Assembly (NCBI GenBank): GCA_024345305.1
Contig: BRON01000001.1
Location: 1,364,001-1,428,000, forward strand
Length of the DNA stretch: 64,000 nucleotides
Origin: Mrakia gelida
Lineage: Eukaryota; Basidiomycota; Tremellomycetes; Cystofilobasidiales; Mrakiaceae
Reading direction: 5' to 3'
Of this stretch, positions 1 through 61,876 are shown in pieces (positions within the stretch are counted from its first letter, which is position 1; each line of letters begins with the position of its first letter). The notes beneath the pieces were generated by a model. It was not told the origin of the DNA. It did no database searches and saw only the letters and a list, made by a program, of their open reading frames with translations. The translations under genes and the position numbers were made by a program.

Positions 1-2398
1 ACCACATGCCTGTCGCCGAATCTCAAAAGATCTTCCCAGGAGAGAACATCCAATCCCTCGTCGCCAAGTTCTTCGACGGAAGTGTCGCCGCTCTCACCGA
101 GGCGAACTGGATGGCCACCCACTCCCTCTACTCGACTCAAACTCTCCTCGTCCTCGTCTCCCCCGCCAACCATCTCGGACGCGGAGACTGGTGGCTCGCT
201 GCCGTGGCTGTTGCGATTCGGATCGCTCAGGCTCTGAGCATCAACTGGTTGGGTGAGGATAGTTATCCAGCCGCGGAAGGGATGGCTTTGTCGCCGATGG
301 ATCCGAACGCGTTGATTCTGAGGGAGATGTGTAAGAGGATTTGGTATCAGCTTGTTGCTCAGGTGAGTCTTTGGGCTTTCGGGGCGGAGGAGGAGCGGGA
401 GTGGGGACGGGAGGGGAGGAAGAGACGAGCAGGACGAGGGTTGAGCTTCGGTTTTCGCGAGCGAGACGCTGACCTTTTTCGTTCTCGTTTGTGTTTCGGA
501 CGACAGGACTGGATGCATCTGCCTTTCAACAGGACTTCTGGTACGTCCTCTCTCGCCGAGTAAACGCCGTCGCTCTTCGCAAAGAGGATTGGGCACGAGG
601 TCGACGACGAGGAAGGATTTCGATGCTGATCGTTCCTTTCCTCTCCTCTTCCTTTCTCCGTTTCAACAGTCATCTCGGCCGCCCAGTTCAATACCGCTGT
701 GCCTCTTCACTGCACCGACGAGAGCCTCCTCGACCCCTCGACTCTTCGACCTCTGTCTATCGAGGTTCCCACGCTCGATTCGCATACGGGTCAGCTCTTA
801 AAACGTGAGTTTTCCCATCTCCTTCTCTCCTTCGCCTCCGCCTCCGCCTCTCCTTTCATCTAGCGTCGATCCTGACAGTCGGATTTCAATTCTCTTCTCC
901 AGTCGCCATCCAAGTTCACAAGTCAGTCGATACATTCTCTGCTCCTTGAACCCTCGCGACGGCACGAGCTCACCTCTCTCCTTCGCCTCCTTTTTCTCAC
1001 GCAGGCTCTTCGACGGCTTCCACGCTACCAAGGTCGTCCCCTATTCTCTCATCCTCCAAGCCGACGCCGAGACGAACGAGATCCTCAAGAACGGTCCTAC
1101 GTGGCTGCAGTGGTCGAGAGACGGTCGACCGAATCCTCTTCCAGCGAACCCGCCTGCTTGGTTGGAGTGGCAATCGAAAACCTTCCTCGTGAGTCTTCGC
1201 TCTTCCTTCACCATCAACTTTTAGGTGAAGCCGTACTGATCTTGTTTCGTCTCCACCTCACGTCTCAGATCTCTGCTGCTCACAAGGTCAGTCGCTCGAG
1301 TTGAGACGAGAACGGTTCGAAGTCGACGCGTCGCTGACCACGATCTTCCTTCCCTTTGCTCCAGATCATCATCCTCCATCGACCCTACCTCGGAAAGGCG
1401 TTCAGCGATCCGAAGTACAGCAAGTCTAGAGATGTGAGCACGCTTTCCTCCAGCTTTGTTCTCGTCGACGCTCTTCGCTGACTTCTTTCCCGACCCATTC
1501 CAGGCTTGCGTGCTTCAAGCTCGTCGGATCCTTCAAATCCTCAGGGAGTGCGACCTTGAGCCTTTCCGAGCGACCTGGACCAACCTCACCCATTCGGTGG
1601 CTGCTGCAGTAATTCTCGTCAGTTCCTCTCCTCTACTCCTTGCGTTTCGAGCTCATCCTCGACCGGCCCTCCTGACTGCCTCTCTCCTCTCTCCCTTCAT
1701 TCCCCCAGATCCTCGAGTTCTCCCACACCTCCTCCGAAAACTCCCACGGCGAGGAACCTCTTCGCCTCGTCGTCGACGCCATCGAAATCTTCCGCTCCCT
1801 CCGCTCCAAATCCACCATTGCCGAGAAGGGAGTTCGAGTCCTGACGGCCTTCCTGGAAGAGCAGCTCCGGAAGCACAACGGTTCTGGAAACCTCAAAAGG
1901 AAGGCGACGGGCGAAGCAGAGCTCGAGAAGGCCATCAAAGCTCTTCGTCGATCTACACCCATCTCTTCCCCTCCCGTCCATCAACCTACTCCTCCTCCTC
2001 CACCACCACCAGGACTTCTCTCTCGCTCATCGTCATCCTCATCCCACCAGCAACAACAACAAGCAGGACCCTCCTCTCAACCCTACCCTTCCTCGTTCAT
2101 GTACCCTCACCATCAACAGCAGCAGCAGTACCAGCAACAGCAGTACCTCCAACCTCAGCTTCCCTCCCCCTCGAACTTCATGGGACCGCTCGGAGGGATG
2201 GGACCTCAGGGAGGAGCTTGGTCACCCCATGGCTACCCAGGATCTGGTGTCTTTGGTGGGCAGGGTGGGGGAGGAGGAGGGGGAGGGAACGGAGGAGGAG
2301 GAGCAGGAGGAGGTCCTCCGTTCGATCAGTCGTCGTTGTTCGAAGGTCTCGATTTCGAGCTGACGGGTTTGCTACAGTACGAGAACGGTCTCCTGTAG
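1..2398 (+). CDS. Fungal transcription factor, C-terminal part (5' end outside window)
   Basis: Nine exons can be traced: up to 362, 507-540, 670-804, 903-921, 1005-1188, 1269-1286, 1365-1433, 1504-1617 and 1709-2398. From the ATG at 6 they sum to a multiple of three (539 residues), but the real start is probably upstream. The first exons resemble the helical fungal_trans (PF04082-type) middle homology region of Zn2Cys6 factors: a WWLAAVAVAIRIAQ segment, then an ILREMCKRIWYQL segment. The DNA-binding cluster itself is not in the window. The C-terminus is low complexity, with a proline run, a Gln-rich stretch near 2110-2150 and a Gly-rich stretch near 2260-2310, ending in an acidic-hydrophobic tail that could activate transcription (inference). 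Family call fairly secure; target genes unknown. Confidence 0.75.
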
Positions 2399-2717
2399 CT
2401 TCAGTGTATACCTCGTTCCTTGGTCTTCTTATCTGTTTTACTTCTCTTGATGAGCTTCACGAGTCCGAGGGAAGAAAGCAAGAGAACCGAACGCGAGCAT
2501 TCGACGCGTGCTGCTCGTCTTCGCTCGTTCTGATCTCTCTCCCAGGCAACCCCTCGGAAGATAGCGGAGTGAACATATCTATCTTGAAATCTACGAACAA
2601 TGCGATGCGATGCTTCCTTCCTCTACTGATCTATAAGTCTAAAGTGAAAGATGATCTAGTCTGAGCGATGCGAGATGGTTTGCGGAACGAAACGAAACGA
2701 AGCACGACGACGACAGC
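2399..2717. other. Convergent 3' intergenic region
   Basis: This short stretch separates two convergent genes and should hold both 3' UTRs and poly(A) sites. It contains an ACGCGT hexamer near 2501. No coding signal was seen. Confidence 0.5.
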
Positions 2718-5015
2718 TCAACCCTGAAGAGCAGCCTGGAGAGTCGCATCGGCGACTTCCTGGATTGAGAGATCGGGGATGGGCTTTCCATCTGAAGAGA
2801 AGGAAGGTGAAGGCGAACACGAGACAAGCAAAGGTCGGCACGGTTTCGTTCTCGACGTGAGAAGCGGGCAAGAGATGAGACTCACTAGCGATGGTCTTGA
2901 TCTGGTAGACGGAAGTGGCGGTTTGCATCGAGGGGTTCTGGGTAGCGGAGGAAGAAGAACGAGGAGTGGAGGGTCAGAGGCTGCTGGGAACGGGGTTAAG
3001 AGACGCGACGAAGAGGGTTCGGTTTCGACTCACGACCTTGTTCTCAGCAGCGTGGAGCTGAGCTCCAGAGATGATGTCTCGGCAGAAGAAAGGGTCGGCG
3101 GTGAGAGGACGAGCGAGTCCGATGACTAATACGAGAGAGGGAAACAAGAAAAGGAAGGAGCGGTCAGTTCGAGCTCGAAGAAGATCAGTCGACGCGTCGA
3201 GGATGGATGGGTTGGAACCAACAATCGCAGCTCTTCTCGGCCAAGGCCTCCTCCATGGGTCCTACGGACCTGAAACCTCCGGTGACACAGAGCTTGGAGG
3301 TCTTGAGAGTGGGTCCTGTAGCGAGAAAGGGAGGAGATGTCAGGCGAGCCGACGACGAGACGACGAGAGGAAAAAAAAGGACAAGGACGAACGGATCTTG
3401 TCGGCGAACTCGATGAAGAAGGCCTCCCTCTTGATGGTCGAGTCCTTCTTGTGCGAGAAGGCTCCACTCCTGCGATGGGAAGACGAAGCGTTGTGATCAG
3501 CGAGAGTTCGGACGCGACGCGAGGAAGCAAAGCGGGATCGAGCGCGCAAACTCACTCGTAGGTTCCTCCAGAAAGCTCGATCAGCTCGACACCGGCCGCC
3601 TCCAACATGATCGCGATCCGTCCAGACTCCTCATCGGTAAATCCTCCCTCGGCGAAATCAGCAGAGTTCATCTTGATGGAAAGGAGGAAGTCGTTGGCGG
3701 GCACTCGTCGCTTGATCTCGTCGAAGATTCGGAAGACAATTCGAGATCGGTTCTCGAGGGATCCTCCATAGTTGTCAGTTCGCTTGTTGACTCGACCGGA
3801 GAGGAACTGAGCGAAGAAAGAAAGACCGGAAGGGGAGGAAGAGGAAGGTGAGCTCAAAAAAACGCGTCGACGAGACCGAGCTGGAGAGGTCAGCCGCACC
3901 TGGGAGAGCAGGTATCCGTGGGCACCGTGAAGCTGAGCTCCGTCGGCTCCAGCTTTGTAGAGAACCTCAGCAGCGAAACCGAAAGAGTCGACCAAGTCGT
4001 CAATCTCGGCGAGAGTCATAGGTCGAGGTTTGGCGAACTGAGGAGGAAAAAGAACGATAGCGACGCAACAGAGAAGGGATAAGCTCAGAGACGAGTAAGA
4101 TTGAAATAGAGAAACTCCAGTCTAGTGCGGGCGTTCACTCACAGTCATTCCCATCGCGTCGGGGTTCTGGATATCGGACGAGGAGACGGGATGAGGGTTG
4201 ATGTCTGAGCTCGTTTGACGCCCTCCATGAGTGAGCTGCCCGATAACGAGCGATCCGTGTCGCTTAGCGGCGGCGATAACAGGCTTAAAGGCCTCGACGG
4301 CGTCCCAAGACTGAGAACGAAACGAATGCAAGAGAGAAAGGGAAGCGATGAGCGACGCGTCGACAACGGACGAGAGAAGGGGAGACGAAACCCACGCTTC
4401 GCTTGTCAATGATTGCGTTCTTCTTGGCCTCGAGAGCAGTCCTGTCTACGGGAAGGTTACCTGGGAATGGGAGAGGAAAAGATAAGAAAATCAGCTCTCA
4501 GCCTTGAGGTCAAAAACAAAAGAGAGCGAGAAGTCGAACCAACCAAGAACGATGATTCCGATGTCTCCCTTTCCCCACTGCTCGTAGAGCTCGATATACT
4601 CAGGGGTAGGCTTGCCTCGAAGGTCGTGGTTGTCCTGGTCGTAGGTGCAAAGTCGCTCAGTCATGGCAGACTTGAGGAACCTGTTGGGGAAAGGTCAACG
4701 AAGGAAGGGGAAGTCAGCCCTGCGAAGTCCGTCATCGTCCCTCCGATGCCAGCCCTCTCTCGCTCTGTAGACCTCCCCGAGGGGCAGGAAGTCTAGGAGA
4801 GCTACTCGCGGCTCTCGCACATCTCCCCTCTAGAACGAAGAGGAGATTCGCTCGCTCTCGACCCCTCCATCGAGCCACAAGAACTCGGACGACGAAGAGG
4901 GAAGGAACGAGATGTTGAGCTCGAGCGAGAGAACGAACCTGTTGGGCGCGACCTTGCCAGAGATGGGGAACTTGAGAGGAGAGGCGAAGATGGAAGGGGA
5001 GACTTGAGAGGGCAT
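2718..5015 (-). CDS. NADH:flavin oxidoreductase, old yellow enzyme family
   Basis: This is an FMN-dependent ene-reductase-type TIM barrel, probably cytosolic, that would reduce activated alkenes with NAD(P)H. The start (4 codons into MPSQVSPSIF) is followed by ISGKVAPNRF, the usual OYE N-terminal barrel motif. Further on come IGQLTHGGRQ, then LHGAHGYLLSQFLS and RTDNYGGSLENR (the family signature with the His-x-x-His pair), then VTGGFRS and IGLARP near the phosphate-binding end. The last exon ends PDLSIQEVADATLQAALQG before TGA. At least eight introns are present; those near 3191, 3862 and 4354 contain the ACGCGT motif. It looks closer to the bacterial-like/plant-like NADH:flavin oxidoreductases of fungi than to classical yeast OYE2. 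Natural substrate unknown. Confidence 0.85.
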
Positions 5016-6433: not shown

Positions 6434-6844
6434 GTTGGGTTGTTGAAGGTCAGTCGCGTCGTTCTTCGCCGTTTCGACTCGTCGGTTTCGGTTCGTCTCT
6501 TCACCCGCTGATCTGACTCTCGTTGCTTCGACCATCTTCAAATCTCAGTCTATCTATGTCTGCCTACCCACAAGGTCGCAACCCGTCTCGGAACGAGCTC
6601 ACGTCGTAGTCTCTCCGAGCGAGAGGAGGGACCGAACCGCGACGTCAGGTTCATCTTCGTCGCCCAGGCTCTTTCTCTCCCCTCTTCGATCCCAACGGGA
6701 CGACATCGATCCCCCAAGCATGAACGCAGGTTCATGCTCTCTGTGTCTTACCTCAGAGACGGAGTGGAAGAGTTGAGGGATCGTGAGCGCGGAGGGAAAG
6801 GGGAGGTCGAGGATGGAGAAGTCAGCGAGGTCGCGCTCGTTTGA
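6430..6844 (+). CDS. Possible small spliced ORF overlapping the upstream stop codon
   Basis: An ATG at 6430 overlaps the TGA of the preceding gene (ATGA). Six codons later there is a good intron (6449-6548) with GTCAGT donor, GCGTCG motif, CTGAC branch and CAG acceptor. The second exon (6549-6844) stays open in the matching phase for 98 codons with largely C-ending codons, including VRFIFVAQALSLP and RRFMLSVSYLRDGVEEL. The total is 104 residues, exactly in frame. It may be an independent small gene. Alternatively it is the true C-terminus of the F-box-like protein, shifted by one or two bases relative to the reading frame, or only a spliced 3' UTR. No family recognised. Confidence 0.35.
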
Positions 6845-7059: not shown

Positions 7060-8873
7060 ATGACATCCGTCCCTTCTTCTTCAACATCACAAGCAGCTCC
7101 TTCAGCTGAGGACATGGCTGCCGCGTTCGCTTCTGATCCTCGAGTTCGCTTCAGCAAAACGAGTGGGAAGTGGGAGTACGAGGACGAGGAAGGAAGGGAG
7201 TTTGAGTGGAGCGACTTCGCGAAGAATTGGGTCCCAATCGTGAGCTTGATTCCAGCTTCTATGCCATGAGAAGATAGTTGGGAGTGGATAGACCAGTCTC
7301 TGACCTTGTTTCGTTTGGTTTCCGTAGGTTGACGACGAGATGATTCGAGCTCAACAAGCTGCCTACTCGGTCAAAGGAGTCGACGAGAACGTTCGTCCAT
7401 CTTGCTCTCTCGCTCCGTCTCTCTTCTATACATCCCTTGTTCTCAAGATCAAAAGCTCATTCTTGTTCTCTTTGGTGTCTCGTACAGGCCCCTGTCGCTG
7501 CTATGGTCGCTCGAGAGAACAAGAGGAAAGCCAAAGACGTCGACTTCACCTCCAACACCTCCGCCGACTCCTCCACTCCTGCTACCTCCAAACCCTCCAA
7601 CGGAAAGAAGGGAGCAGACAAACGAGCAAAACCAGATCCATCCTCCTCATCATCCACAGACCCTTCATCCTCCACCACCACCGCTCCCCCTCCAGCTCCC
7701 AAAGCTCCCAAGAAATCCACCGCCGTCTTCATCACCAACCTCCCTCTCGACGCAACAGCTTCAGAGATCGCCTCCGTCTTCTCCAAATGTGGAATCATCC
7801 TCCTCACACCTACCAACGAACCCAAGATCAACATGTACACCTCCCCGGAATCAGGCATGTTCAAAGGAGAAGCTCTCGTCATGTACTTCAAGGAGACGAG
7901 CGTCGATCTGGCCATCACCGTCTTGGACGACACCGAGCTCAGGTTGGGAGCTGGGGAGGGGAGGATGAAGGTCAAGAGGGCTGAGTGGGGAGATGGATGG
8001 AGTGGAGGAGCTGCTATGGAGGGTGTTACTGGAGAGGATGGGAAGCCGGTGGTGGAGAAGAAGCAGAAGAAGAAGATGACCCCCGCCGAACAGAAGGAGC
8101 TCAACAGGAGGATTAGGAAGATGGAGAAGTGAGTCAAGGCCTCCCCTTTCGTCTCTCCTCTGTTCGAAACATCCTCGGTGAGCGCCGTAGCTGACCTTTG
8201 AGCTCGTTTTGGCGTCAGCAAACTCACCGGCTGGGACTCAGGCTCGTCGGCGGACGGTTCAGCAGGAGAGGAGGAGAACGAGCGAGCTCCTTCGGCCAAC
8301 GCTCGAATCGTCGTTCTCAAGCACATGTTCACGCTCGAGGAACTGGAGGAGGACGCGACGCTGCTGATCGATCTGAAGGAGGAGGTGAGAGAGGAGGCAG
8401 AGGGGATGGGAGAGATCACGTCGGTCACGATCTTTGATGTGAGTTCTCGACGCGTTTCGTTCGAGACTCGAACCTCCCAGCCTCGCACTGACCGACTGAC
8501 CTTTCGTCGTTCGTTTTCTCCGTCGCTTCGCTTCTTTACAGAAAGAGGAAGAAGGCATCATGACCGTCAAGTTCAAGGATCCTCTCGCTGCTCGAGCTTG
8601 CGTGCTCAAGTTCAACGGTTCGTCCATCCCTCCTCTCTCTCTCCTCGCTCTCCTCGCTCTCGATGCTTCTGGGACGCTGACCAACCTTCTTCCCCTTCGT
8701 CGCCAGGCCGGTTCTTCGCCCAACGTCAAATCTCAGCCTCGCTCTTCGAAGGACGAGTTCGGTTCAAGCGCTCTGGCGCTGGAGCTGCTCTCGACGAGGA
8801 GGAGGAGGCGAGGGAGGAGAAGGCCAGGTTGGAGAAGTTTAGAGAGTATCTGGAGAAGGAGGATGCTCAATAG
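7060..8873 (+). CDS. Tat-SF1/CUS2-like U2 snRNP-associated splicing factor
   Basis: Six exons (7060-7239, 7328-7390, 7488-8128, 8219-8438, 8542-8617, 8707-8873) sum exactly to 448 codons plus stop. The family acts with U2 snRNP: CUS2 in yeast binds SF3b and helps U2 snRNA refold during prespliceosome assembly. The N-terminus has a degenerate GYF/OCRE-like block (KWEYEDEEGREFEW). A first RNA-recognition motif follows (AVFITNLPLDATASEIASVF, residues about 165-240), then a Lys-rich linker. The second RRM is the UHM-type unit with RIVVLKHMFTLEELEED and a NGRFFAQRQISASLF RNP1-like end, both typical of Tat-SF1. The acidic/charged tail ends at TAG. The ATG at 7060 is the first methionine after a pyrimidine-rich leader. 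Confidence 0.92.
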
Positions 8874-9072
8874 ATGAGGCTCATCTGTCTCTTTTGTGCG
8901 GACGGAGAGGAAAGTATGGGCGAGTCTCGTTTCCAAGGAGACGCGTCGATAGGACGAGTTTGAAAAGACCGCTCCACCTTTCTTTCGTCGTAAACCTTCA
9001 CTCCTCCGTTACTCCTCCCTCCTTCGTTCTTCTTTCTCTGCATCTAGCTATCAATCACATCCCCAGATCATC
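8874..9072. other. Intergenic region and 5' UTR of the next gene
   Basis: This holds the 3' end of the Tat-SF1-like gene and the promoter and leader of the next gene. A GACGCGTC palindrome lies at 8940-8947. Nothing else was recognised. Confidence 0.4.
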
Positions 9073-9201: not shown

Positions 9202-9205
9202 CACC

Positions 9206-12200
9206 ATGTCTTCTCACGCTTCTCAAGCTCTCGCTCTCACCTCGGACGAGATGAACGCCATCATCACCGTTCGCCTCGCCGAGGAAGGATTATCGGACGA
9301 TCCAGAGGTCGAAGCCTTCCTTCGCGAGCAATCCACACTCCTTCGCCCTCTCCTCGTCGGAATCCGCTCTCGTTCTCCATCTTCGATCCCTTCAAGACAA
9401 ATGGAGGAACAAGGCTATCGCTGGGAAGCTGTCGGAGATCCAGATCAGGAAGGCTGTGGAGGTGGCGAAGGAGCAGGCTGAGGGGGTCGGTGGAGCTGTG
9501 AGTCTTCCTTTCCCACTTCCTTCCATCCCTGCCCATCTCGTGCCTCGGTTCCAGAAAAGTTCCTTCACTGACCTTCATCCATGCCCCATCGCCCTTCAAT
9601 CTCAGACTTCTTCCAACCGAGATTCTTCGTTCGTTCCTGCGGTGAGCTTCTCTCTCGCACATGTCGCTCGCACGGAGCTGAAACGCGAGCTCAACTCCTT
9701 CTCCTCCTTCCACTATTCTTCCTCTGGAACTCCCGCCCTCAGCTTTCAGCTCAAGCTTCTTCTCGTACGCCATCAGAGAGGCCCTTGGATCGATCAAGTG
9801 TCAGTTCACTAGTTTCGCACTCGTCGTTTTGCTCGAACGAGAACTAACTTTCCTTTGTCTTCGTTTCTTTCTCGCCAGACCTCGAGCTCTGTTCCCGCTG
9901 GAGGATCCAAAGCACCCAAGATTGAACCCAAAGTCGAGGTCAAGAACGAGGTGAAGCCCATGGTACCTCAGGTACGCTCTTTTCCCGAGATCGAGTAAGG
10001 GAAATCGCGTCGAAACGCGTGCGCAACTGACCTCGATCTTTCTTTTCTCTCCTCAGCCTCCGAAAGCCGTGGCGACCGTTTCTACTGGCGATCCTTCTTT
10101 CTCTTCTCCAACCCAGCCTGCTCTTCAAGCTGGCAGATCAAGTGCTCCAGGGTTTAATCCTGCCGTGAGCTCGCTCTCGACTCTCTCGTCCTCGCTCGTT
10201 GACGCGTCTCAATCTTGCTCACCGTCTCGCTCTTTCTTCTCCCATCTCCAGGCTTCCGTCTCAGGATCTCGAGTCTCCATCGCCGCTCTTACTACTGCTT
10301 CTACTTCCGGAGCCTCGTCTCATCTTCCTGTTCGTGTTTCTCAAACCTCGCGAGCGGACACGATTCTCCGACTGACCTCGTTCTCGCTCGGATCCTTCTC
10401 GTTCGAATCAACTTAGCACCGAGCTGCTGGATCTACTGGACCTCGACCGATCGATCACTCCTCCAGCACAGGCACGGATCGCGAAGTTGGGAAGTCTTCG
10501 GAGGGAGGAGAGTCTGCGAGTCGAGGTGAGTTTCGCGTCTCGTCCAGCTTCTCGTCGAACGTCGCTGATCTTCCCTCCGTTTGGTCCTCCTCAGAACCGA
10601 GCATCACGATGGAGATGGCGCGATCGAAGAACTTCTCTGAGCGAGTGAGTAGTCCGTCCCAAGCTCTCGGATAACGTATTGTCTCGAATCGAGGGCTAAT
10701 CTACTATCATCCAACAGTACGCGAAATGCCGAGCCTGGTGGGTCCGTCTTCGATGTTCACCCACTGCCTCAGCTCCTCGCTGACTGTGCCGTATCTCTCG
10801 TTTTAATCGTTTTCTCAGGCAGCAGAAGTACCCCCAGTGGCGAGCGAGCGTCACCCTCTTCCCTCCTTCCTTCCTCGACAGCATCCTCCCTTCGAAACGC
10901 CAACAACTCCTCGACGTTCTTGATCTCACCACCAACACGATCATCGGCAAGCCCTCGGTCGTTACAGAGGACCACCTCCATGCTCTCGCCTACGCGAAGG
11001 ACCTTTTCGACTTCCGACAGGACGACGCGTTCGACTCAGCTCTCTACCGGTCCTGGATCGCCGCTGGAGCCGACGAAGAGATGCTCGTCCTCGCCTCGAC
11101 TCTCTTTACTTCATTCTCCAACGCCAGATCCAACAGGAGACCCGCGGTGCCATCGGTCAGTCGAGCCGTACGCACTCCACCTTTCCGCGACGACCCAGAC
11201 CAAACCCCTGCTTTGCTTTCCTCAGGAGCCCGCGAACCTTCCTTCACTTCCTCTTCGAGCAGCAAGACTTCAACACGGATATGATCAGCTCCTCAGAGTC
11301 AGCCAGCCCTCCACCGCTTCTGCGGCTTCAACGTCAAAGGTGAGTTGGCTTTCAACTTCGACGCGTGGAAGTCTCTTCCACAGCAGCTGATCTCCTCGTC
11401 CTCTCGCTCGTCTATTCAGCAGCCATCCACGGAGCCTTCGACTTCCTCTCCGATGCTCAAGACGACGAGCTCTTCGACGAAGAAGAAAGTCTCTCTCGCT
11501 CCCGTTCCCGCTCCCGCCCAGAGCTCCTCAAAAAAAAGACCTTGTGAGTCGACGCGATCCTGCTTCCGAATTTCCGAACGATGTTCGCTGACTCTCATCC
11601 TTCCATCTCCGACTCAGCACCTGCATCTCGAATCTCGATGGAAACGGCCCGAGCGACGTCCCCTAAGAAGAGAGTGAGTCGCCTTCCGGATCTTCGCTTC
11701 GAAGCTCGATAGCGAGACGCGAACTGACTCGCACTCGCTTCTTGATCCGAGCAGTTGCAGCTGGCTCACACAAGGTCAGCTTATAGTTACATTTATTATC
11801 TATATCTTCGCCGCTTCGCCTGACGCCAAACGCCTTCTTCTTCTTTCTTCCGCTTCAGGGAACGAACCCTTCCGACCTGGCGAGAGGATCTCACCCTCTT
11901 CCCGCCCTCCTTCCTCCGAACCCTCGTCACTTCCAAGTCTCGCCAGTTCCTCCAAGTCATCAATCTTCAGACCAACAAGCTGGTCCGAATCCCTGAGGAG
12001 CCCAGCGACAAGGACATCGAGATGCTCAGGGCAGCGAGGAAGGTCTTGAACTTCAAAGCTCCTGCTACCTTCCAATCGGATCTCTTCCTCTCCTGGACGT
12101 CATCTGCATTCGACGGAGAAGTGCTTCTTCTCGCCGAGCTTCTTGCTCGATCGCTTCGAGTAGCCCCGAGGCACTGGGATCAGAAGAAGAAAAAGGTGAG

Positions 12201-12530
12201 CTCCCTCGTTTGTTACGGCCTCGTTTCGTTCGATTCGGCTTCGACGACGAGCTGACCTTTCTCTTCGCCTCCCCTTCCCCTTCAGATCGAAGCCGGGGCC
12301 GAGATGGCTGCTGAGGACGACGAGGCCGACGATGATGATGCCGGCTCCATCGAGGACGATTCTGACGAGGAGGACGGGTCGAACGAGGTGAGTTTGGCTT
12401 TCGTCTTCGTCGCTTTCTTTCGCTCGACGCGTCCCTTCACGCTTCGATGAACTAACAAGCTTTCGATCCCATTCAATCTGCATCACTCCCTTTAAAGGCG
12501 CCCGCTCAGAAGAAGGCTCGAATCAACTGA
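9206..12530 (+). CDS. Unrecognised protein with an internal tandem exon-block duplication
   Basis: About sixteen exons can be followed to the TGA at 12528-12530. The N-terminus is helical, followed by a long Ser/Pro/Thr/Lys low-complexity region. Two copies of a domain of about 119 residues come next: exons 10718-10737 plus 10819-11155, and exons 11755-11774 plus 11859-12195. Both share TLFPPSFL and a Trp eight residues before it. An acidic segment (12285-12389, Asp/Glu run) and a short basic end (KKARIN) follow, suggesting a nuclear protein (inference). The two repeats are separated by another Ser/Lys-rich linker. Near the 5' end the reading frame must shift by one base between about 9330 and 9400 to join the clearly coding DKWRNKAIAGKLSEIQ segment. 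I do not recognise the family. Confidence 0.7.
10595..12195 (+). repeat. Tandem duplicated exon block inside the 9.2-12.5 kb gene
   Basis: Copy 1 is exons 10595-10644, 10718-10737 (20 nt) and 10819-11155 (337 nt). Copy 2 is exons 11618-11673, 11755-11774 (20 nt) and 11859-12195 (337 nt). Intron phases match at each junction. The proteins align without gaps through the 337-nt exons, sharing for example W-R-x3-TLFPPSFL, while the introns differ. Confidence 0.85.
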
Positions 12531-12965
12531 ACGGAGGTCGTCGTCGCGTCGTCGCTGGGAGTTTGCCTTTCTACCCTTTGTTCGTTCTCTCTTTCTTCTT
12601 CTTCTACTTCGTCTTTCTTCACGACCCGCTCTACACCCACTATGCTTTCATCTCATCTCCTTCACCATCTCGTACCGCTTCGACTAGCTTTCCCTCTCCC
12701 TCCCTCCGCTCCCTTGATCATCTCGCTCGATTCGTTTCTCTCGTCGCTTTTTCTCAACTATACTCAGCCCTGGTTCTGTCCACGCCCTCTTATCGAAAGG
12801 CTCGCGTCTTTGCCGGAAGAGCCGAATCGATGTCAACGTGCTCTGTCCTTGATATGACTCGATCGCGACGCGTCGGTTCCTTTGGGGAGGAAGATCGGAG
12901 AAGCTCATTGACATATGTTCGTCACTCGATCCTATCGTTCTCTAATCACGACGAGACTCGTCCTC
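12531..12965. other. Convergent 3' intergenic region
   Basis: A pyrimidine-rich stretch (12560-12780) with T/C runs follows the stop of the plus-strand gene. A GACGCGTC lies at 12867-12874. It presumably holds two 3' UTRs; no gene seen. Confidence 0.5.
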
Positions 12966-14493: not shown

Positions 14494-14761
14494 AGAGGCT
14501 CGGAAGACGTTTCAGAAAGCGTTGGTTGGGGTGGTGGTTGGTTGGGAGGAAGGATGTGGCGAGGAGATGGAGGAAAAAGGGCGGCTTGACCTCCACCTCC
14601 CGGCCTCCCTCTCCTCCGTCCTCCCTCGTTCTTGCTTTCTTTATTGCTGGAAAACTTTTCACTGCGGAAAAATCAATGGCTGGATTATTACAGCGGTAGT
14701 GTAGAACAAAAAAGGAACACAAAAGATTCAAGATCGCGACGCGTCTTCAACACGTCTCGCT

Positions 14762-48494: not shown

Positions 48495-51400
48495 TCAATC
48501 GGAGTCGCTATCCTCGGGATGGTTCCCGACTCCGTGGTAGGGCTGCGACGGATGGAAAAGGGCGAATGAAAGGTCAGCACGAGTTTTCGACGACGAACGA
48601 CCGAGGCGAGGTTCGGTCGTGGCCAGGCGAGGCTCGGTCGTCTCTCCCTCCTGTCCTTCCCTCCTCGAGCGAGGCAACGAAGCACAAACTCACCTTGAAA
48701 AGAGCCATGATGTCCTCCAATCCAAGCTTATTCCCAGCCTTGAACTTGTCTCCCGAGAGAGCAGCAGCGGCGAGCTCCCTCTTCTTGTCCTGGAGTTCGA
48801 GGATTCGATCCTCGACGGACTCCTCGATGGCGAGTTTGTAGATCTCGACGTCTCGGGTCTGTCCGAGACGATGGGCTCGGTCGAAGGCTTGGTCTACAAG
48901 GGAGGAAGGAAGGAGGAGGAAGAAGTCAGTTGAGGGGAAATGAAAGGCGAGATGAGAGAAGTAACTGACCTTCGAGGGCGGGGTTCCTGAGGAGAAGAAG
49001 AAAGGGAGCGGTCAGCTCGAGAGGCCTTTGAGACTTTAAAGAGGAACGAAGAGAGGCTCACCACCAGAGATCGACGAGAATGACATGGTTGGCTGAGGAA
49101 GACGAGGAACGAAGAAGAAGATCAGTCCCGCTCGAGAAGAAGACGAGCTCGCGAGCAAGCCGACTCACCACACGTCAAGTTGAGACCTGAAGATCGCAGA
49201 GGGAAGAGAGGTCAGAAATGAACCTCCGGAAAGGCGTGCTGAAAGGGAGAGCCGACAACTCACCCGTGCTTCCAGCTTTGAACGAGATCAAGATGACCTT
49301 CGTCTCGGGATCGCTCTTGATCGCCTCGAGGGAGATCTGTCGCTTCGCGTCGACCATCGAACCATCGTCTGCAGAGCGAAGAAGTTGAAGGTCAACTGAG
49401 GAATCGGAGAAGCGGGAAAAGAGGGAGGAGAGAACGACTCACATCGAACAAACTTGTGACGGTCTCGACGAAGGAAGGGCTCGATGATGTCGAGCATGGA
49501 GGTGAACTGAGCGAGCGAAGAGGGCAGATGAGCGAGTCAGCTCGACGAAGATATCTCCTCCGAGTCGAAGCGAATCAGACGTACCTGCGAGAAAACTGTT
49601 CGAGCAAAACGACGAGTCGTCGAGTCAGCTTCGCCTCACCTCCCCTCGCCCATCCCGCCCGAACACTCACTAATAGTCTTCTCCCCAACCTCTCCCTTCT
49701 CCCTCACATCCTTCAAGATCCTCCTAATCTCCCTGATCTTCGCACTCGAAGGCGGCGTGTCCGTCCCTTCGACGGTCCCCTCCCTCGCCCTCCTGGCAAT
49801 CGACCTGCACCCGTCCGAGCAGAAGTCCTTGACTCCCTTCTCGAGGTCCGACGAGCAGATGGTGCACTTGAGGGTTTTGGCTACTCCGAGTCCTCCGAAG
49901 AGATCCGCGAGGTCGTCGGCTTCGTCGGAATCTTCCTTGGTTGGGTTGGTGGCTTTGGGAGCGATGGCGTCCGGGTCGGAGGCGAAGGATTTGGAAACGA
50001 GGACGGGGTGATCACAGGCTGCAAGGGGGGAGAGGAGAGAGGGGAGAGGGAAATTAGTGAGATGGGGGGTGAGAGGAAGAAGGAGAAGGAGGAGGAGGAG
50101 GAGAACGAACCTTGTCGAAGACGGAGCAGCATCGTCAAGATCGAGGTCTGACGAAGGGAAGAGAAACGAGGTCAGTCGAGGCTCCTTCTCGCGCATTAGA
50201 AACATCCGAGAAGGCTCACGTAGTTGCTCATCACAGTCCCAGACTTCATGAACTGTCGGATGAAACGAAGAAGGAAGAGTCAGCGCCGAAGGGAGGAACG
50301 AAGACGCGTCGAAACTCGAACTCACCTTCGACATCGTCAAAGCCGTCTTCTCCGCCAAAGCCTGATAGAACGCTCTCTCGTCCTTGTCGAATACGCAAGT
50401 AACGACCTGAACGTTCCTCTCGGGGAGGTTGAGGATCCTCTTCCCGTTGATCTCCGCGGTCTTGAGTCGACGAAGCATGATGGCTTTCAAGATGACCTGC
50501 GTTCCGTTCGAACGAGAAAGGTCAGTACTCGATTCCTCTGAGCGAAGGAGAGGAGAGGAGATGCGAGGAGGGGACGACGGACCTGAAGCTTCTTCATGGC
50601 GTACTTGGTCCGACCGGCCTTGACGGGTTTGGAGATCTGCTCTCGGAAGGAGTCCCAGTCGTCGAGAGGTCGGCAGCGAAGGAAGGCGAAGAGGGAGAAG
50701 AGCTCGTCGACGTTGTTCTACGAGATGAACGACGAAAGGTCAGCGATCTGAGGGCGAGATGTGATGAGCTGAGAGATGAGCTGCTGACCTGGATCGGAGT
50801 ACTGTCGCGGAGGAAGCGAGAGAGGAAGGATGTTCAGCTCTAGCTTCGAAAAGTCCTTCGACGCGTCTCGTCCGCAAACTCACCCAGTCAAACACCACCT
50901 GAACTTTCCCGACAGCTCGATACAAGCCTTGGCAGCCTTCGTAGTCCGGTTCTTGATGTTCTGAGCCTCGTCTGCCATTGAAACGAAACAAGTCGAGCCT
51001 CGAGGTCAGCGAACGAACGCGTCGAGCGGAGGGAACGAGGGCAAAATCGAAACGCTGCGAGACGTACCGAGCACGATCCTATGCCACTTGACACGAAACA
51101 GCGCACAAAGAGGGTTCGCCGACGCCTTCTTCTTCTTGGTTACCGCCTTGGCTTTGGTCTTCTTTGCCTTCTTCAAGCTGTCTCCGAACTCCTCTCCGGT
51201 GTCGCTGTCTGAGTTGTCCTCGTCTTTGGCGGTGAGAGCGAGGAAGTTGGCGTGTTCAGAGGCGACGACTTGGTAGGTAGTGATCTGAAGAGGAAGGTAA
51301 AACGAAAGTGGGTGAGGGTTAGCGAGCGAGAGGAGGAAGCCAGGAGGGAAGGGCTCACGATCACGTCGTACTTCTCGAGATCGTGGGCGTCTGAGGAAAC

Positions 51401-53948: not shown

Positions 53949-56400
53949 ATGCCTTCTCCCTCCAAAGAGTCCTCGCCTCGCTCCTCTTCAGAAGAGAAGA
54001 AGGAGGGCATCACATCAGTTCACAACGTTGAAGCAGCCGGAGTCGACGAGACGGACAAGAAAGCTTCGCTCTACCGAGGGACGGTCTTCCAGGTTCGTTT
54101 TCTCATCTATTTCCTTTGTCTGAGGCATTTAGGTGGTAGAGAGGCACTTCGCTGATGTTCTGTTGATCTCCAGGCTGGAGTTATCGGGATCTGCTCGTTC
54201 CTTTCCGTGCCTCGTCGTCTCCCTTGATTCCCTCGCTAGACCGAAGATCAAGCTGACCTCTCCGTCTTCCCTTTTACAGCCCGGTATATGGAATGCGCTC
54301 AACGGAACGGGTGCCGGAGGAGCTCAAAGCCCATACCTTACCTCGTGTGAGTAGCTCACCTCCGTTGAAAACTCGTCCATCGCAACTGACGACTTCGAAC
54401 CCCGGCCTCGAGCTGACCCTCCTCGTTTTCGCTTCTTCCCTCCCAGCAACGCCGCCAATACTTTGGTCTATGGCTTAATGGTCTTAACGTGTGCTCTGGG
54501 AACTACTCTCTCGAACCGTGAGTCTCTACCGATCGGTTGAAGAATGCGTCCGCGATCTTTCCTCGTCGCTGATCAACCTCCCCTCGCTTTCTCGTTTCTC
54601 CCTCTTCCAGGCATCGGGATGAAGTGGACTCTCTTCGTTGGAGTCCTGGGCTACGCTCCTTACGCTGCTGGCCTCTACACCAACAAGGTTCGTCCGAATT
54701 GCGTCTCTCCTTTGGTTCAAGAAGTTCGTCTTCACCTCGACGGGTCGCCAACCCTTCTTTCAGTTCTTCTTTCCAGATGTTCGGAACCGTTTGGCTCGTT
54801 CTATTTGGCTCTGCGACATGTGGGATCTCAGCGGGGATCTTCTGGTCCGTGGAAGGCGAGTGGAAGCGTTCCTCAAGCTCGATTCTCCGCTCACGACGCG
54901 TCCGCTGACTTTCTCGTTGGTCCTCAGGTGCTATCATCCTCGGATACCCCGAAGCCTCGAAAAGGGGGAGATACCTGGCCAGTTGGCTTTGCTTCAAGTC
55001 TGGTGGTCAGATCCTGGGAGGATGCATCAACGTCGCTCTGAACTCGAAACCTAGCGGAGCGGGATCCGTCGCGTTCGTCCTGGCTCTCTTCTTCTTCTTC
55101 TTCCCCCGTCTCTTCCTGGGCTTGCGCTTCGGTGACTGACCTAGACTAAAATATCTACATCCATCTATAGTGGTTCTACGTATCTTACTTTCATAGCTCT
55201 CACCGCCATCTCACCTCTCTTCGCCCTCCTCCTTTCCGAACCTCACCAAGTCGTGCGAGACGATCGCTCCCCAGTCACTGTCGGCACGTCAAAGCTCGGA
55301 TTCAAGAAGGAAGTCGCTGAGGTCTGGAAGGTTCTTCTCCGTCCAGAGGTCCTGTTCTTGTGAGTTCGACCGACGACGACGTGTTTGTTTTCGCGGCAGC
55401 TTCGTGAACTGACCCTCGACGTTTCGATCTTCAAACCTCTAGACTCCCCGTCGCCTTCTACTCCTCCGTCATGGGACCTTGGACTACCACTTACCTCACT
55501 CTCTACTTCTCAGTTCGGGCTCGGTGAGTTGCAGACTCCCTCGTTTTGCACGACTGCGACTCGACGCGTTTGGCTGACTCGACGCGTCGCTCTCTACCCT
55601 CCTTGCAGAGCCGTCGCTTCCCTGGTCACCGCCGTCATCGGAGTCATCGCCAACTTTATCATGGGCTACTTCCTAGACTCCACAGTTCGTTCTTCCCTCT
55701 GAGCTCGCGATTCGCATCTCGAAGCTGACTCCCGCTCGTCGCGTTTGGTTTTGTTTCACGGTCTCCCACAGCGATTTTCGCTCAAAACCCGAGCTCGATC
55801 CTCCTACCTCTTCATGGCTGGTCTATCCGTTGCTGCCTGGATCTGGTCTCTCGTCATCCAAACCGAGTTCTCAGCTCAAAAACCCGCGACGCTCGACTGA
55901 AGCAACAAAGCGGGTTTTTCCCGAGCTTGGATTTTATACGTCTTGTACTCCCTTAACACCTCGTGAGCATCTCCCTTCGCACTATCCTCAGCTTATTTCA
56001 CCTGTGACTTCACCTGCAACCGCTCACTCTCCCTTCACCTCGCTCACTTTGTCCCCTTTCCCCCCTTCGTTCCCCCGTCGCGCGTCCCAGCCTGATCCAA
56101 AACGTCCTCTACTTCTACATCGGCGCCATCTCCAAGGAACCCAACGACATCGGACGACTCTCCTCCATCCTCAGATCTCTCGAGTCCGTCGGCTCGACGG
56201 TTGGGTACGGAATCACGAGCAACAAGAAGATGAGCCATCTCATTCCCTTGGGCATCGACATTGGGTTCTTTGGGATCTCGTTCCCGCTCGGGTGGTTCTG
56301 CATCAACAAGATTGGGGTGACACTCGCTGGAGGATATGACTCGACGGAAATCGTCGCTGTTGGTGAGGCGGAGCCGGTTGAGAAGGAGATAGTGAACTAG
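53949..56400 (+). pseudogene. UNC93/DUF895-type MFS transporter interrupted by an in-frame TGA
   Basis: A polytopic membrane protein of the UNC93-like (DUF895) branch of the MFS. Recognisable segments in order are GVIGICSFLSPGIWNALNG, NAANTLVYGLMVLTCALGT, GMKWTLFVGVLGYAPYAAG, ATCGISAGIFWSVEGAIILG, RGRYLASWLCFKSGGQILGG, YLTFIALTAISPLFALLLSE, VASLVTAVIGVIANFIMGYF, LIQNVLYFYIGAISKEPNDI and IDIGFFGISFPLG. The exon 55772-55962 enters in phase 0 and reads ...KPATLD then TGA at 55898-55900, then continues in the same frame SNKAGFSRAWILYVLYSLN. Homologues have Trp there (LDW[ST]), so TGG became TGA. About 360 residues precede and 124 follow. The downstream exon still looks conserved, so the break is recent, a readthrough site or a base-call error. 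One intron (from 54856) uses a GC donor. Confidence 0.8.
55898..55900 (+). other. In-frame TGA at a conserved Trp position
   Basis: The codon is embedded between CTC GAC and AGC AAC AAA in an open exon whose frame is fixed by the preceding phase-0 acceptor. No GT/AG pair nearby could remove it. Confidence 0.8.
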
Positions 56401-56730
56401 TTTTCGGCGACGCGAATGGTTTGTTTTGATTTCTTCCTTTGATCCTTTGAGAGTTGATGATGAGGGGTTGGACAAGTGTTTGACTTTAACTAGATGGCGT
56501 ATACAGCGCTCACGATTGTGGGCCGCGGAAATATATAAGTACCTGTAAGGAACGACGATGAGCACCGAGAACGAAAGAGAAGTCGGGACGCGTCGACGGT
56601 CAAAGCCAACTGGCTCTCCTTCGAGCCTCCTTCTTTCCCTCGCGCCTCGCAGATTCAGGCCAAAGCAGAAACGATAGTGTAACATATCTTCTAACTATAC
56701 TCCAGTATCTACATATCCACCCTCTCCCGC
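56401..56730. other. Convergent 3' intergenic region
   Basis: About 330 bp between convergent stops. GACGCGTC lies at 56587-56594. No coding signal. Confidence 0.45.
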
Positions 56731-58820: not shown

Positions 58821-61423
58821 CTAATACACTCCAGGAATGAACGTGTATGGCACGGCTGCGAAAGCAAACGAAAAGGAGAGGAGAGGTCAGCGTTCTCGTT
58901 CCGACTCGACGCGTTCGAACGAAGATCAAAACGACGGTGCTCGCCTTTGCAGTACCGGTCCCAACTAGTGAGCGAAGCGGAAACAAGAGGTGAAGGTCGA
59001 AATCAGTCAGACTGAACCGAGAGCGGCGCCGTTTTCTTCGTTCTTCGAGCAGAAGAAAAGCGAAAAATCAGACTCACTCGTCGGTATACTTCTTCTGACA
59101 CTTCTCGAAATCTCTCGAGCACCGCTGCACGAGAACGATGGTGAACCATACAACGTAGTAGTACGCGATTGGGCTGGACCATCCCGTGCAGAGACCCCTG
59201 TTGAAAGCGAGATTGAGAGACGGGGAGAAGTCAGCGAGCGAAAGAGGAAAGGACCGCTAGAGGGAGTGAAAATTTGAGGGAGTGCAAACAAACCACGTCA
59301 TGCTCTGGATGAGGTCGGCGCTGTAGTTGGGCTTTCGGAGGAATCTGAAAGAAGACGCGGAAAGAAGTCAGCTTTGGACCAAAGAAGAGGCGGACGCGTC
59401 GAACTCACCCCCACCATCCCGAGATCAAGAGCTTGTTTCCGTGCTTGGTCTCGATGTACTTGGGGTTCTTAACTCGTCGCCAAGGGAGTTGAGGGAAGGC
59501 GTCTCGGGGGATGAACTCGTTTTGAAGCTCCTGTAAGGGAAGGAAGCGAACGGAAGGAGATGTGTGAGCTCGAGGTTGCGGTACGAGCAGCGAGGAGAGT
59601 TGCTGGGAAGACGAACCATTCGGAAGTTACTCTTCTGCGACATTGCGGTGTCGAAGATGTAGTAGGAGAGAAGGAGGAGGCTGGGGTTGGGAGGGAAGAA
59701 GGATGAGAGCGCAGGTCAGCGAGAGCCGAGAAGGCGAAGTCGAAGTTGAACGCTGAGCTCACCAGTAAACTCCCGTCATAGCAGGAGTCGAGAGCTTATA
59801 CACCGAGGGATCCGTTCGGTGAAGGTAGATGATGGAGTAGGAGTAGGTGAAGGGACTGATGGGAGAGGGGAAGAAGCGTGCAGGTCAGACGAGTCCTCGC
59901 GACGAACAACAACGAAACTCGACGCGACGAGACTCACACTCCAGCAAAGTTCCAGAAGGTGAGCATGAACCCGTCTTTCTCGTAGAACATATCGATGGTC
60001 TGAGGAATGCATTCCTCTCCCTTCGCACAGGCGTTCAGGTAGAGACCGGTCGCGAGGACCATGAAGGCGAGGTTCTGGGACGAAAACGAAAACGATGTCG
60101 GTCAGGACGAGATGGCCGAACAGGAAGGAGGGAAGAAAACAGCGAGAGAGTCGAAGAGGCTCACGGGAGTGACGTATCCGATCGTCTGGTACTGCTTGAG
60201 GGCAGCTGAGATGGCAATGTGGAAGAGGAGGACCCAGGGGATTCGAACTTCTTGCCACATCTGTCGAGGAAGAACGAGAGAGCGAGGACAGGTCAGCGAT
60301 CGACTCCTCGGAACGCGAAGAAGAGCTGGAGAGGACGAACCTTGAGATCGATGTTCAGGATCTGAGGGTTGAGCGAAGCTGAAGATCGAAGGCGATGGAT
60401 CAGTACGCGTCGAGCGAGCGAGCAAACTTCGAAGCAACGCAGCGGACTCACCTCCCATAAAGAAGTCGTACACGAACCAACCCGAGTTCCTAATCGGCTT
60501 CCCACCCCAGTGGAACCATACCGCTCCGAAGAAGACCGCAAAAGAGACGGCGAACCCAACGATCATAGCAACGCTCATGAGCTCTCCGAAATGGTCGATG
60601 ATCTGGGTGAGGTCGAAGAGGCCGGTGAGGTGAAGGGTCGAGGAAACGACGAGAGTGAAGTAGCAGCAGTAGAGAGCGTTGCACCGGTAGGTGAGGGTCT
60701 TGTAGTTGAGGGAGGGGACGGGGAGTCCTGAAGACGAGGAAGGGAAGGGAGCGAAGAAGGGGGACGTGAGTGAGCTTTCGTCGAGTCGAATCGGTGAGGT
60801 GAGCTTGAACTGACCTTTCTGCACCTTCCCAGGCATGAGGAAAGCAATTACGAGCTGGAAAGCCATGAGACCGAGGTACATCTTGAACGCGAAGGCGGTA
60901 GGGTACGCGTCCTAAGGTGCAAGAAGGAAGGAAGGGCTCGGTCAGCTAAGCTCAAGCTCGTTCGATTCAGCCCTCCCTTCCCGGTTCGAGGCGCTACACT
61001 GACCTCGTAGATGTGGTTCCCGATCTTGTTCAAGAAGGGCCTGATACCCTCGATCGACTCAGGATGAATGAACTTTCCCTCGTAGAACCACAGGCACGTC
61101 CAGAGGTAAACTTTGAAACGAGGAAGGAGAGGAGGTGAGCTCGACTTTTTCCTCTTTCTCCCCCTCCCTTCCCGAAGACGTTGGAACTCACACATCAAAC
61201 AAGGAAAGCCCGTCATCATAGCCGTCACTCCTACGGGTCCTCCGAACTCCCAGTGGGAGTGAGTGTCAGCCGCGAGGTCCTTGAGGCGAGCTTCGTCGGA
61301 GGGGACGAAGTCGACGACGTTCCCACTCTTCTGGTTGGCATCTCCGCTGAAGGAGGACATCGTGGCGGCTGATTTGGCAGGAGCAACCTGGACTTTGCGC
61401 TCTCGAGGACCGTCGTTGGCCAT
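58821..61423 (-). CDS. ERG4: Delta(24(24(1)))-sterol reductase, C-24(28) (last step of ergosterol synthesis)
   Basis: An NADPH-dependent ER membrane enzyme that reduces the C24(28) double bond to give ergosterol. ERG4/ERG24 family motifs are visible: HWEFGGPVGVTAMM, VYLWTCLWFYEGKF, LNYKTLTYRCNALY, ELMSVAMIVGFAVSF, GKPIRNSGWFVYDFFMGASLNP, MWQEVRIPWVLLF, FMLTFWNFAGVPFTYSY, the substrate/NADPH region LLISGWWGFLRKPNYSADLI and the terminal CSRDFEKCQKKYTDEWDRYC followed by PYTFIPGVY. The start MANDGPRERKVQVAPAK gives a short cytosolic tail. About twelve introns, one with GACGCGTC at 59393-59400. The C-terminal YCxxVPYxFIPGVY form is the family's signature. Very secure call. The target sterol makes it functionally close to the azole-type efflux pump in this window, but they are 20 kb apart. 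Confidence 0.96.
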
Positions 61424-61876
61424 TGATGGGGAGAAAGAGGCGGGAGGGGGAGGGGGAGGTTATTGGGCGTTGGAGAGGGAAGGGAGGGAGGACGAAACAA
61501 ACAGGAAGGGCGGAGAGGAGACAGGCGAGAAGTCGAACGATACTGTGAACTGGAGGATCCGAGTTCCGCCGCCTTGGGCCGCTCGAGGCAGATTTTCACT
61601 TCGATCTACAGAGGGAACTGAAAGCTTGAACTTCTAGCTTCCTGCTCGTCCGATTTGGCAGAGCCGTTCTCGACGATCTGCCAGCGAAAGCGAAGAGGTT
61701 GTTCCCCTTCGATCCCGCTCCGTTCTCGACGCGTCGTCTGCCCAAAATCAACCTTTTGTTGGCGATACAACGGCCTTCAGAAGGATATAAGGCGACTGAA
61801 AAAGCAGATCTATGAAGAGAGAGAGGGCAGAGGGTCTAAAAGATCTAGAGGTGACAAGAGGAGGCGAGCGAGACAG
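61424..61876. promoter_or_regulatory. ERG4 promoter and Mpv17-like 3' end
   Basis: About 450 bp. GACGCGTC lies at 61728-61735. A classic sterol regulatory element was not seen by eye. Confidence 0.45.

Follow-up and report, generated by a model that had tools for sequence, protein, structure and literature searches.

A palindromic octamer family spaced at about 169 bp in the genome of the fungus Mrakia gelida

Here we describe a palindromic octamer, GACGCGTC, in a 64,000-nucleotide stretch of the genome of the cold-loving basidiomycete yeast Mrakia gelida (contig BRON01000001.1, positions 1,364,001 to 1,428,000; hereafter the window) and in the genome at large. The window contains predicted intron-bearing genes, including a PDR-type ATP-binding cassette (ABC) transporter gene (30411-38500, minus strand) for which 45 introns are predicted, and copies of the octamer lie in the introns and the intergenic DNA. 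Together with its one-base variants, the word tends to recur at multiples of about 169 bp, a spacing that probably reflects nucleosomes.

Abundance and gene context of the octamer

The window holds 35 exact copies of GACGCGTC (Table 1). An earlier note on this DNA had estimated about 40, slightly too high; all 35 coordinates that it listed hold the word, and there are no others. Dinucleotide-preserving shuffles of the window gave a mean of 2.11 copies and a maximum of 7, with none of 100 shuffles reaching 35. Across the genome (34,857,517 bases in 25 contigs), there are 15,647 copies as against 87 of the reversed word, so that GACGCGTC is about 180 times commoner than the same letters read backwards; the massive over-representation claimed in the earlier note thus holds at both scales. 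Counted genome-wide on both strands, GACGCGAC (12,422 versus 535), AACGCGTC (6,695 versus 258) and the CpG-transition neighbour GACACGTC (1,421 versus 297) are also in excess. Among the papers found in one open-access library for GACGCGTC, and for CGACGCGT together with fungi, no title treats a genome-wide word in a fungus. The available text of PMC1779545 includes GACGCGTC among promoter words of the yeast cell cycle.

Gene context was analysed in an annotated sample comprising the window and the next 200 kb of its contig (sample A, the contig-1 part) and 50 kb of contig 4 (sample B), in all 314 kb of 34.86 Mb. Genes were predicted from sequence, without transcript support, using our own finder, which combines splice-site, branch and coding models, is initialised with hand-set matrices for splice sites and branch and with generic amino-acid frequencies, and is retrained on its own predictions. 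Its scores were neutralised at the octamer, and the word was therefore unable to sway intron or exon labels. At a score of 20 or more, the sample yielded 103 genes, which contain 981 introns (median length 88). Models scoring below 20 were excluded from rates, and their three copies were tallied separately or placed in the intergenic classes. Pfam families were matched by six of the seven predicted window proteins scanned. The best match of the window's uroporphyrinogen decarboxylase (UROD) is from Phaffia rhodozyma (75% identity), the next reaching at most 66% among 7,999 candidates scored. According to the available text of PMC5103461, no other fungi in its comparison have as many introns per gene as Phaffia and its order.

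The 153 copies in the sample are distributed over introns (92), intergenic DNA (48), the coding sequence (CDS) of well-scoring models (10) and low-scoring models (3). Density is 0.96/kb in introns (92 in 95.6 kb; 5.1 expected from an order-2 Markov model), 0.71/kb in intergenic DNA (48 in 67.8 kb) and 0.07/kb in CDS (10 in 140.2 kb), where the word is sparse. According to our gene models, 24 of the 35 window copies are intronic, 11 are intergenic and none is exonic, as had been reported; this absence does not extend to the 314 kb, in which the 10 CDS copies compare with 3.26 ± 1.55 after synonymous-codon shuffling. Exons are therefore not avoided; enrichment there (about 3-fold) is merely far weaker. 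First introns are poor in copies (0.17/kb, 2 in 12.0 kb, versus 1.08/kb in other introns; p = 8e-4), and none of the 981 introns has two copies (about 4.5 expected). The 300 bp 5' of start codons hold 2 sites in 23.2 kb (0.09/kb), sequence farther 5' has 0.52/kb and 3' flanks have 39 sites in 34.9 kb (1.12/kb; p = 5e-7 versus the near 5' region).

Intronic copies prefer the interval between donor and branch site (72 copies versus 13, the 10 copies overlapping the branch included; available positions 40,755 versus 20,083). In the window, 15 of 24 lie upstream of the branch A, two overlap the branch, five lie downstream and two have no recognised branch, in keeping with the earlier remark that they usually precede it. 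This preference would fit an intronic splicing enhancer or an introner remnant, both proposed in the earlier note. A splicing role is opposed by the similar intergenic density, by variants in both sense-strand orientations and by the spacing found among intergenic-only pairs (see below), and an introner footprint by little-conserved flanks, by the 48 of 153 copies that are intergenic and by the lack of a length signature; neither sits easily with the two copies in first introns. An insertion model was checked against intron length and donor-branch distance and rejected, site-bearing introns being no longer than nulls. We consider a splicing or introner origin highly improbable. The octamer shares GAC with the branch sequence in 10 of the 85 intronic copies that have a recognised branch; the median distance from branch A to acceptor is 32 nt, and the top enriched intron 8-mer is GCTGACCT.

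Recognised sequence, spacing and composition

The most enriched one-mismatch neighbours in non-coding DNA are GTCGCGTC (6.2-fold), GGCGCGTC (5.0), AACGCGTC (4.7) and GCCGCGTC (3.9). All four differ from GACGCGTC solely at the outer two bases and leave the CGCG core intact. Some outer changes are poorly enriched (CACGCGTC, 2.2-fold; TACGCGTC, 0.9), and no change within the core exceeds 2.3-fold. On the sense strand, introns hold both orientations of the variants (GACGCGAC 25 and GTCGCGTC 37; AACGCGTC 14 and GACGCGTT 21), which together with the intergenic copies suggests that the word is recognised as double-stranded DNA. The flanks of 143 non-exonic sites show C before and G after in 57% (symmetrised logo) and little else, with less than 0.12 bit beyond position -1. 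Perfect and variant sites rarely lie within 100 bp of each other (6 pairs versus 20.3 ± 4.2 in sample A; 0 versus 3.7 ± 1.8 in sample B).

The perfect word and six variants were treated as one family, with sites less than 10 bp apart merged (340 sites in 314 kb). Distances between family sites peak near 165, 340, 500, 665 and 850 bp, and the troughs are near-empty (a single pair at 60-100 bp and another at 210-260 bp). Power at periods of 170-175 bp was 81.0-82.5, compared with a maximum of 6.3 at these periods in 60 simulations that reassigned intron sites to other introns, keeping their offset from the donor, and moved intergenic sites only within their own class. The fitted lattice period is 169.3 bp (bootstrap 169.25 ± 0.98 bp). 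Each part of the sample carries the lattice (window, 69 pairs, power 12.4; remainder of sample A, 214 pairs, 57.6; contig 4, 78 pairs, 10.9), as do intron-only and intergenic-only pairs, and it was replicated outside the annotated sample, at positions 1-210 kb of contig 1 (101 pairs among the sites listed, power 27.7). Perfect sites alone gave a best period of 172.4 over the whole sample (60 pairs, power 15.5), and none of 14 sets of control words, with 4 to 2392 pairs, exceeded a power of 5.1. Simple even spacing was dropped for a periodic reading after finer distance bins; tests of evenness were mixed, sample A being more even than chance, sample B not significantly so, and the coefficient of variation being 1.1 for genome-search positions among the sites listed. 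Tandem repeats were also rejected as the source: self-BLAST of the 314 kb (E at most 1e-10, at least 150 bp) gave 13 alignments, seven of them involving the ABC gene, and the arrays present in the window are built of 3- to 27-bp units.

Composition follows the same lattice. CpG around perfect sites oscillates in phase with it, from about 0.053 to 0.103 per base. The cosine amplitude is 0.21 (z 21.5), or 0.13 (z 12.9) with CGCG words masked; in exons it is 0.12 (z 8.7), or 0.09 (z 5.9) with masking. TA is in antiphase (amplitude -0.47), as are AT and CA/TG, and is 2.3-2.6 times commoner between lattice points. Among control anchors, AAGAAG lacks the CpG phase (-0.01) and TA-containing words give -0.13. 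The observed/expected ratio of CpG is 0.87-1.09 across sequence classes. AACGAA, GAACGA and CGAACG are in phase with the lattice in the 314 kb despite having no CGCG. Introns sit at lattice points more than in the spaces between, and their midpoints are periodic (64.6 versus at most 27.9 in 300 shuffles of exon and intron lengths).

Table 1. Perfect and variant octamer sites in the window. Perfect sites are exact matches placed with our own gene models, and variant sites come from the family listing; strand is given as a point.
Element	Position	Strand	Context
GACGCGTC	1325..1332	.	intron 6/8, gene 6-2398(+)
GACGCGTC	3191..3198	.	intron 8/10, gene 2718-5015(-)
GACGCGTC	4354..4361	.	intron 3/10, gene 2718-5015(-)
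GACGCGTC	8940..8947	.	intergenic, 66 bp past predicted stop codon
GACGCGTC	10201..10208	.	intron 5/16, gene 9206-12530(+)
GACGCGTC	12426..12433	.	intron 16/16, gene 9206-12530(+)
GACGCGTC	12867..12874	.	convergent intergenic
GACGCGTC	13183..13190	.	intron 7/7, gene 12966-14493(-)
GACGCGTC	13849..13856	.	intron 4/7, gene 12966-14493(-); overlaps GACGCGAC at 13844
GACGCGTC	14738..14745	.	intergenic, 24 bp past predicted stop codon
GACGCGTC	15269..15276	.	intron 1/2, gene 14762-15432(-)
GACGCGTC	18949..18956	.	intergenic; next copy 331 bp on (about 2 x 169)
GACGCGTC	19280..19287	.	intergenic; next copy 347 bp on (about 2 x 169)
GACGCGTC	19627..19634	.	intergenic
GACGCGTC	20832..20839	.	intron 6/9, gene 20238-22002(-)
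GACGCGTC	22383..22390	.	intergenic, 25 bp past predicted stop codon
GACGCGTC	22870..22877	.	intron 13/15, gene 22408-26583(-)
GACGCGTC	23212..23219	.	intron 12/15, gene 22408-26583(-); overlaps branch
GACGCGTC	27076..27083	.	intergenic, 64 bp past predicted stop codon
GACGCGTC	30540..30547	.	intron 45/45, ABC gene 30411-38500(-); not retained in paralogue
GACGCGTC	32748..32755	.	intron 33/45, ABC gene 30411-38500(-); identical in paralogue
GACGCGTC	35459..35466	.	intron 15/45, ABC gene 30411-38500(-); GACGCGCC in paralogue
GACGCGTC	37233..37240	.	intron 5/45, ABC gene 30411-38500(-); identical in paralogue
GACGCGTC	37723..37730	.	intron 4/45, ABC gene 30411-38500(-); identical in paralogue
GACGCGTC	40663..40670	.	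intron 15/19, gene 39333-43482(-); overlaps branch
GACGCGTC	46359..46366	.	intergenic, 140 bp past predicted stop codon
GACGCGTC	47591..47598	.	intron 3/4, UROD gene 46607-48207(+)
GACGCGTC	48110..48117	.	intron 4/4, UROD gene 46607-48207(+)
GACGCGTC	50303..50310	.	intron 12/22, gene 48495-52857(-)
GACGCGTC	50860..50867	.	intron 9/22, gene 48495-52857(-)
GACGCGTC	54895..54902	.	intron 3/8, gene 54544-56400(+)
GACGCGTC	55581..55588	.	intron 6/8, gene 54544-56400(+)
GACGCGTC	56587..56594	.	convergent intergenic
GACGCGTC	59393..59400	.	intron 10/13, gene 58821-61423(-)
GACGCGTC	61728..61735	.	intergenic, 149 bp past predicted stop codon
variant GACGCGAC	3002..3009	.	
variant GACGCGAC	3511..3518	.	
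variant AACGCGTC	3861..3868	.	
variant GTCGCGTC	6453..6460	.	
variant GACGCGAC	8352..8359	.	
variant GACGCGTT	8449..8456	.	
variant GACGCGTT	11024..11031	.	
variant GTCGCGTC	12543..12550	.	
variant GACGCGAC	13844..13851	.	overlaps 13849; stands for 13849 after <10 bp merging
variant GACGCGAC	15111..15118	.	
variant AACGCGTC	18553..18560	.	
variant GACGCGTT	21198..21205	.	
variant AACGCGTC	23231..23238	.	
variant GACGCGAC	24414..24421	.	
variant GTCGCGTC	25121..25128	.	
variant GACGCGAC	26914..26921	.	
variant GTCGCGTC	28062..28069	.	
variant GACGCGTT	28728..28735	.	
variant GACGCGTT	31408..31415	.	
variant GACGCGAC	33938..33945	.	
variant GACGCGTT	35822..35829	.	
variant AACGCGTC	36460..36467	.	
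variant GACGCGTT	36622..36629	.	
variant GACGCGTT	39535..39542	.	
variant GACGCGAC	40162..40169	.	
variant GACGCGAC	41180..41187	.	
variant GTCGCGTC	41641..41648	.	
variant AACGCGTC	41801..41808	.	
variant GACGCGAC	42069..42076	.	
variant GACGCGCC	45876..45883	.	
variant GTCGCGTC	46016..46023	.	
variant AACGCGTC	51016..51023	.	
variant GACGCGTT	55563..55570	.	
variant GACGCGTT	58908..58915	.	
variant GACGCGAC	59921..59928	.	
variant GACGCGAC	62078..62085	.	

Self-comparison of the sample also showed a perfect head-to-tail duplication of 211 bp, at about 7460-7880 of locus L001.

Conservation and candidate readers

The ABC gene of the window has a paralogue on the same contig (1453220-1461548; 1206 of 1347 aligned residues identical). 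The introns of the pair still align, at 57-90% identity, and offer a natural test bed for intron evolution. The paralogue matches three of the window gene's five sites exactly, has GACGCGCC at one more and does not retain that of intron 45; its own fourth site aligns with AACGCGTC. The octamer stands out as an island of identity in one paralogous intron that is 62% identical, and generic intron 8-mers are identical between the paralogues in 8% (multiple alignment) to 15% (pairwise) of cases. This retention suggests selection on the sites, as modest evidence from sequence comparison. It also bears on the possibility that the lattice is a by-product of positioned nucleosomes, in which mutational differences between linker and core make composition periodic and the word itself is functionless. 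Periodicity in general composition, beyond the octamer, is what such a process would produce. Mutation bias, however, predicts neither an octamer about 180 times commoner than its reversed form, nor a fixed CGCG core with variable outer bases, nor the mutual exclusion of sites, nor retention in the 62%-identical intron, and synonymous positions in exons are enriched 3-fold only. We regard a functionless by-product as distinctly unlikely.

A candidate reader is encoded on contig 12 (around 73286) by an Mbp1-like gene with APSES and ankyrin domains, which matches Mbp1 structures best (top PDB match 4ux5, 6.6e-38). The Mbp1 form is given as RACGCGWY in a table within the available text of PMC1779545, and the variant spectrum resembles this form without fully matching it: two of the four best variants fit (GACGCGAC and AACGCGTC) and two do not (GGCGCGTC and GCCGCGTC). 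The sites could thus be dispersed MBF or APSES (Mbp1-like) sites, regulatory or decoys, on a lattice since bound sites need accessible linkers. Widespread MBF sites were also suggested in the earlier note, and part of the specificity and the Mbp1-like gene speak for them. However, sites are nearly absent from the 300 bp 5' of starts, where a regulatory MCB (MluI cell-cycle box) is expected, and reach their highest density in introns and 3' flanks. Nor would a binder of the octamer alone account for the phasing of CpG outside CGCG words. MBF sites as the whole explanation seem unlikely to us.

A search with PF00145 found two C5-methyltransferase-like loci on contig 10 (828400-833800 and 105000-112500). 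One gene exceeds the Pfam cut-off and the other, at 20.6 bits, falls below it; in the PDB, DNMT1 is the nearest match of both (4.1e-6 for the weaker one). In our own gene models their motif IV reads SCPPW and PGQ (GGPPGQ) in place of the usual PCQ. No DNMT5-type gene was found in this exon-by-exon search, which used PF00145 only and can miss one, and neither locus is followed by SNF2 in our models. These genes bear on linker CpG methylation of the kind found in DNMT5-bearing picoalgae, where methylated clusters would repel nucleosomes and GACGCGTC would be the cluster favoured by the enzyme. Consistent with this, the CpG phasing extends past the octamer and into exons, CpG shows no strong depletion, and the scarcity of sites near starts resembles that of 5-methylcytosine (5mC) in Auxenochlorella and prasinophytes in the available text of PMC12633428. 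The lack of a DNMT5-type hit and the unusual motif IV argue against methylation, as does the antiphase of TG/CA, whereas deamination of linker CpG would put TG/CA in phase. We take methylation to be a minority prospect and rather unlikely.

Interpretation and comparison with known systems

Taken together, these data suggest that GACGCGTC and its one-base variants are probably nucleosome-spaced elements, most likely placed in linkers. We infer that the lattice corresponds to the array of nucleosomes in vivo, with sites in linkers and cores between them; of the possibilities raised in the earlier note, a nucleosome motif is the one that the spacing of about 169 bp strongly favours. The element would be read on double-stranded DNA by a protein that binds CGCG with a specificity like that of Mbp1 or, if methylated, via its dense CpGs. 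It would hold nucleosome arrays in register across gene bodies and 3' ends, and selection would keep it wherever protein coding and promoter function permit. By our own estimate, a protein reader deserves about half of the weight, methylation somewhat less than a third and neither of them about a fifth. A bolder proposal, on which we are tentative and almost evenly divided, is that this family constitutes an explicit, sequence-specific nucleosome ruler in a eukaryote: octamers recognised on double-stranded DNA would stand at integer multiples of about 169 bp through gene bodies and 3' regions, and both the positions of introns and the choice of CpG in exons would be adjusted to the lattice.

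Several observations weigh against the nucleosomal reading. Period and composition are all that equates the lattice with nucleosomes, and the spacing data do not separate linkers from dyads. With perfect sites alone, the power is 4.4 for the window (17 pairs), 8.3 for the rest of sample A (33 pairs) and 2.7 for contig 4 (10 pairs; best period 204, no peak at 169 bp). The signal fades past about 1.2 kb, and distances of 40-600 bp alone slightly favour 179 bp (61.6) over 169.5 (57.5). Nominal significance is overstated because pairs share sites, and some control pair sets have positive mean cosines (GCTGACC, 0.17, 182 pairs; CGAGCTCG, 0.34, 28 pairs; the TACGTA set, 0.42, 4 pairs). There is no phase lock to start codons, and stop codons give at most 5.0. 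Introns that lack CGCG altogether show no significant periodicity (power 7.4, reached by 44 of 300 shuffles), and the phasing of introns may therefore follow from the sites. Other CpG-rich or intron words used as control anchors carry a CpG phase of 0.03-0.14, versus 0.21-0.24 for the sites, and no clear 10-bp rotational signal of TA was seen, a comparison run with no null. A third, more diverged ABC paralogue retains no site of the window gene exactly. Finally, CpG autocorrelation is no weaker near promoters (0.037) than in gene bodies (0.038), so that the picoalgal absence near gene starts is paralleled by the octamer, which is nearly absent there, but not by the autocorrelation.

Sites might instead mark nucleosome dyads, which spacing alone would not distinguish from linkers. 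TA is a step that favours nucleosomes, and its 2.3- to 2.6-fold excess between lattice points stands against dyads, a placement that we consider very unlikely. If the nucleosomal reading is true, this genome would make the long-standing question of how far sequence dictates nucleosome positions directly testable; single-site mutation, prediction of arrays from sequence and identification of the reader would become possible, and the linker-CpG architecture of algae would extend to a fungus, with a specific word replacing bare CpG. By title or opening of the abstract, nothing among the matches listed from one open-access library on nucleosome repeats, CpG periodicity or linker motifs in fungi treats such a system. 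The available text of PMC12749792 reports an expansion of histone genes in Cystofilobasidiales and calls its effect unclear.

Among known systems, four invite comparison. The DNMT5 linker-CG architecture of picoalgae is covered in the available texts of PMC7862722, PMC5082852, PMC9246332 and PMC12633428, a set in which the periodic pattern is listed under algae; the last describes periodic linker 5mC that is absent near gene starts. The two systems share CpG that is periodic at nucleosome-repeat spacing (here from sequence), a near-absence of the motif, though not of periodic CpG, from gene starts and the keeping of CpG, whereas here the host is a fungus, one palindromic octamer dominates and the PF00145 search found no DNMT5 gene. 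We do not file the present system under the algal architecture, though it would work like it, because methylation and DNMT5 are unproven here. The algal genome architecture was reportedly set out by Huff and Zilberman in 2014. HIP1 (GCGATCGC) of cyanobacteria, as given in the available text of PMC4390886, is likewise a palindromic octamer iterated genome-wide; the present word differs in belonging to a eukaryote, in being sparse in coding sequence and in its periodic spacing. With the MCB/MBF (Mbp1-Swi6) system there is a common ACGCGT core, part of the RACGCGWY degeneracy and an Mbp1-like gene, whereas here there are 15,647 perfect sites genome-wide, and those in the sample lie mostly in introns and 3' flanks, are near-absent just upstream of starts and are spaced at about 169 bp. 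Introners insert between nucleosomes. Introns in M. gelida similarly tend toward lattice points, whereas the word also occurs in intergenic DNA and has little conserved flank.

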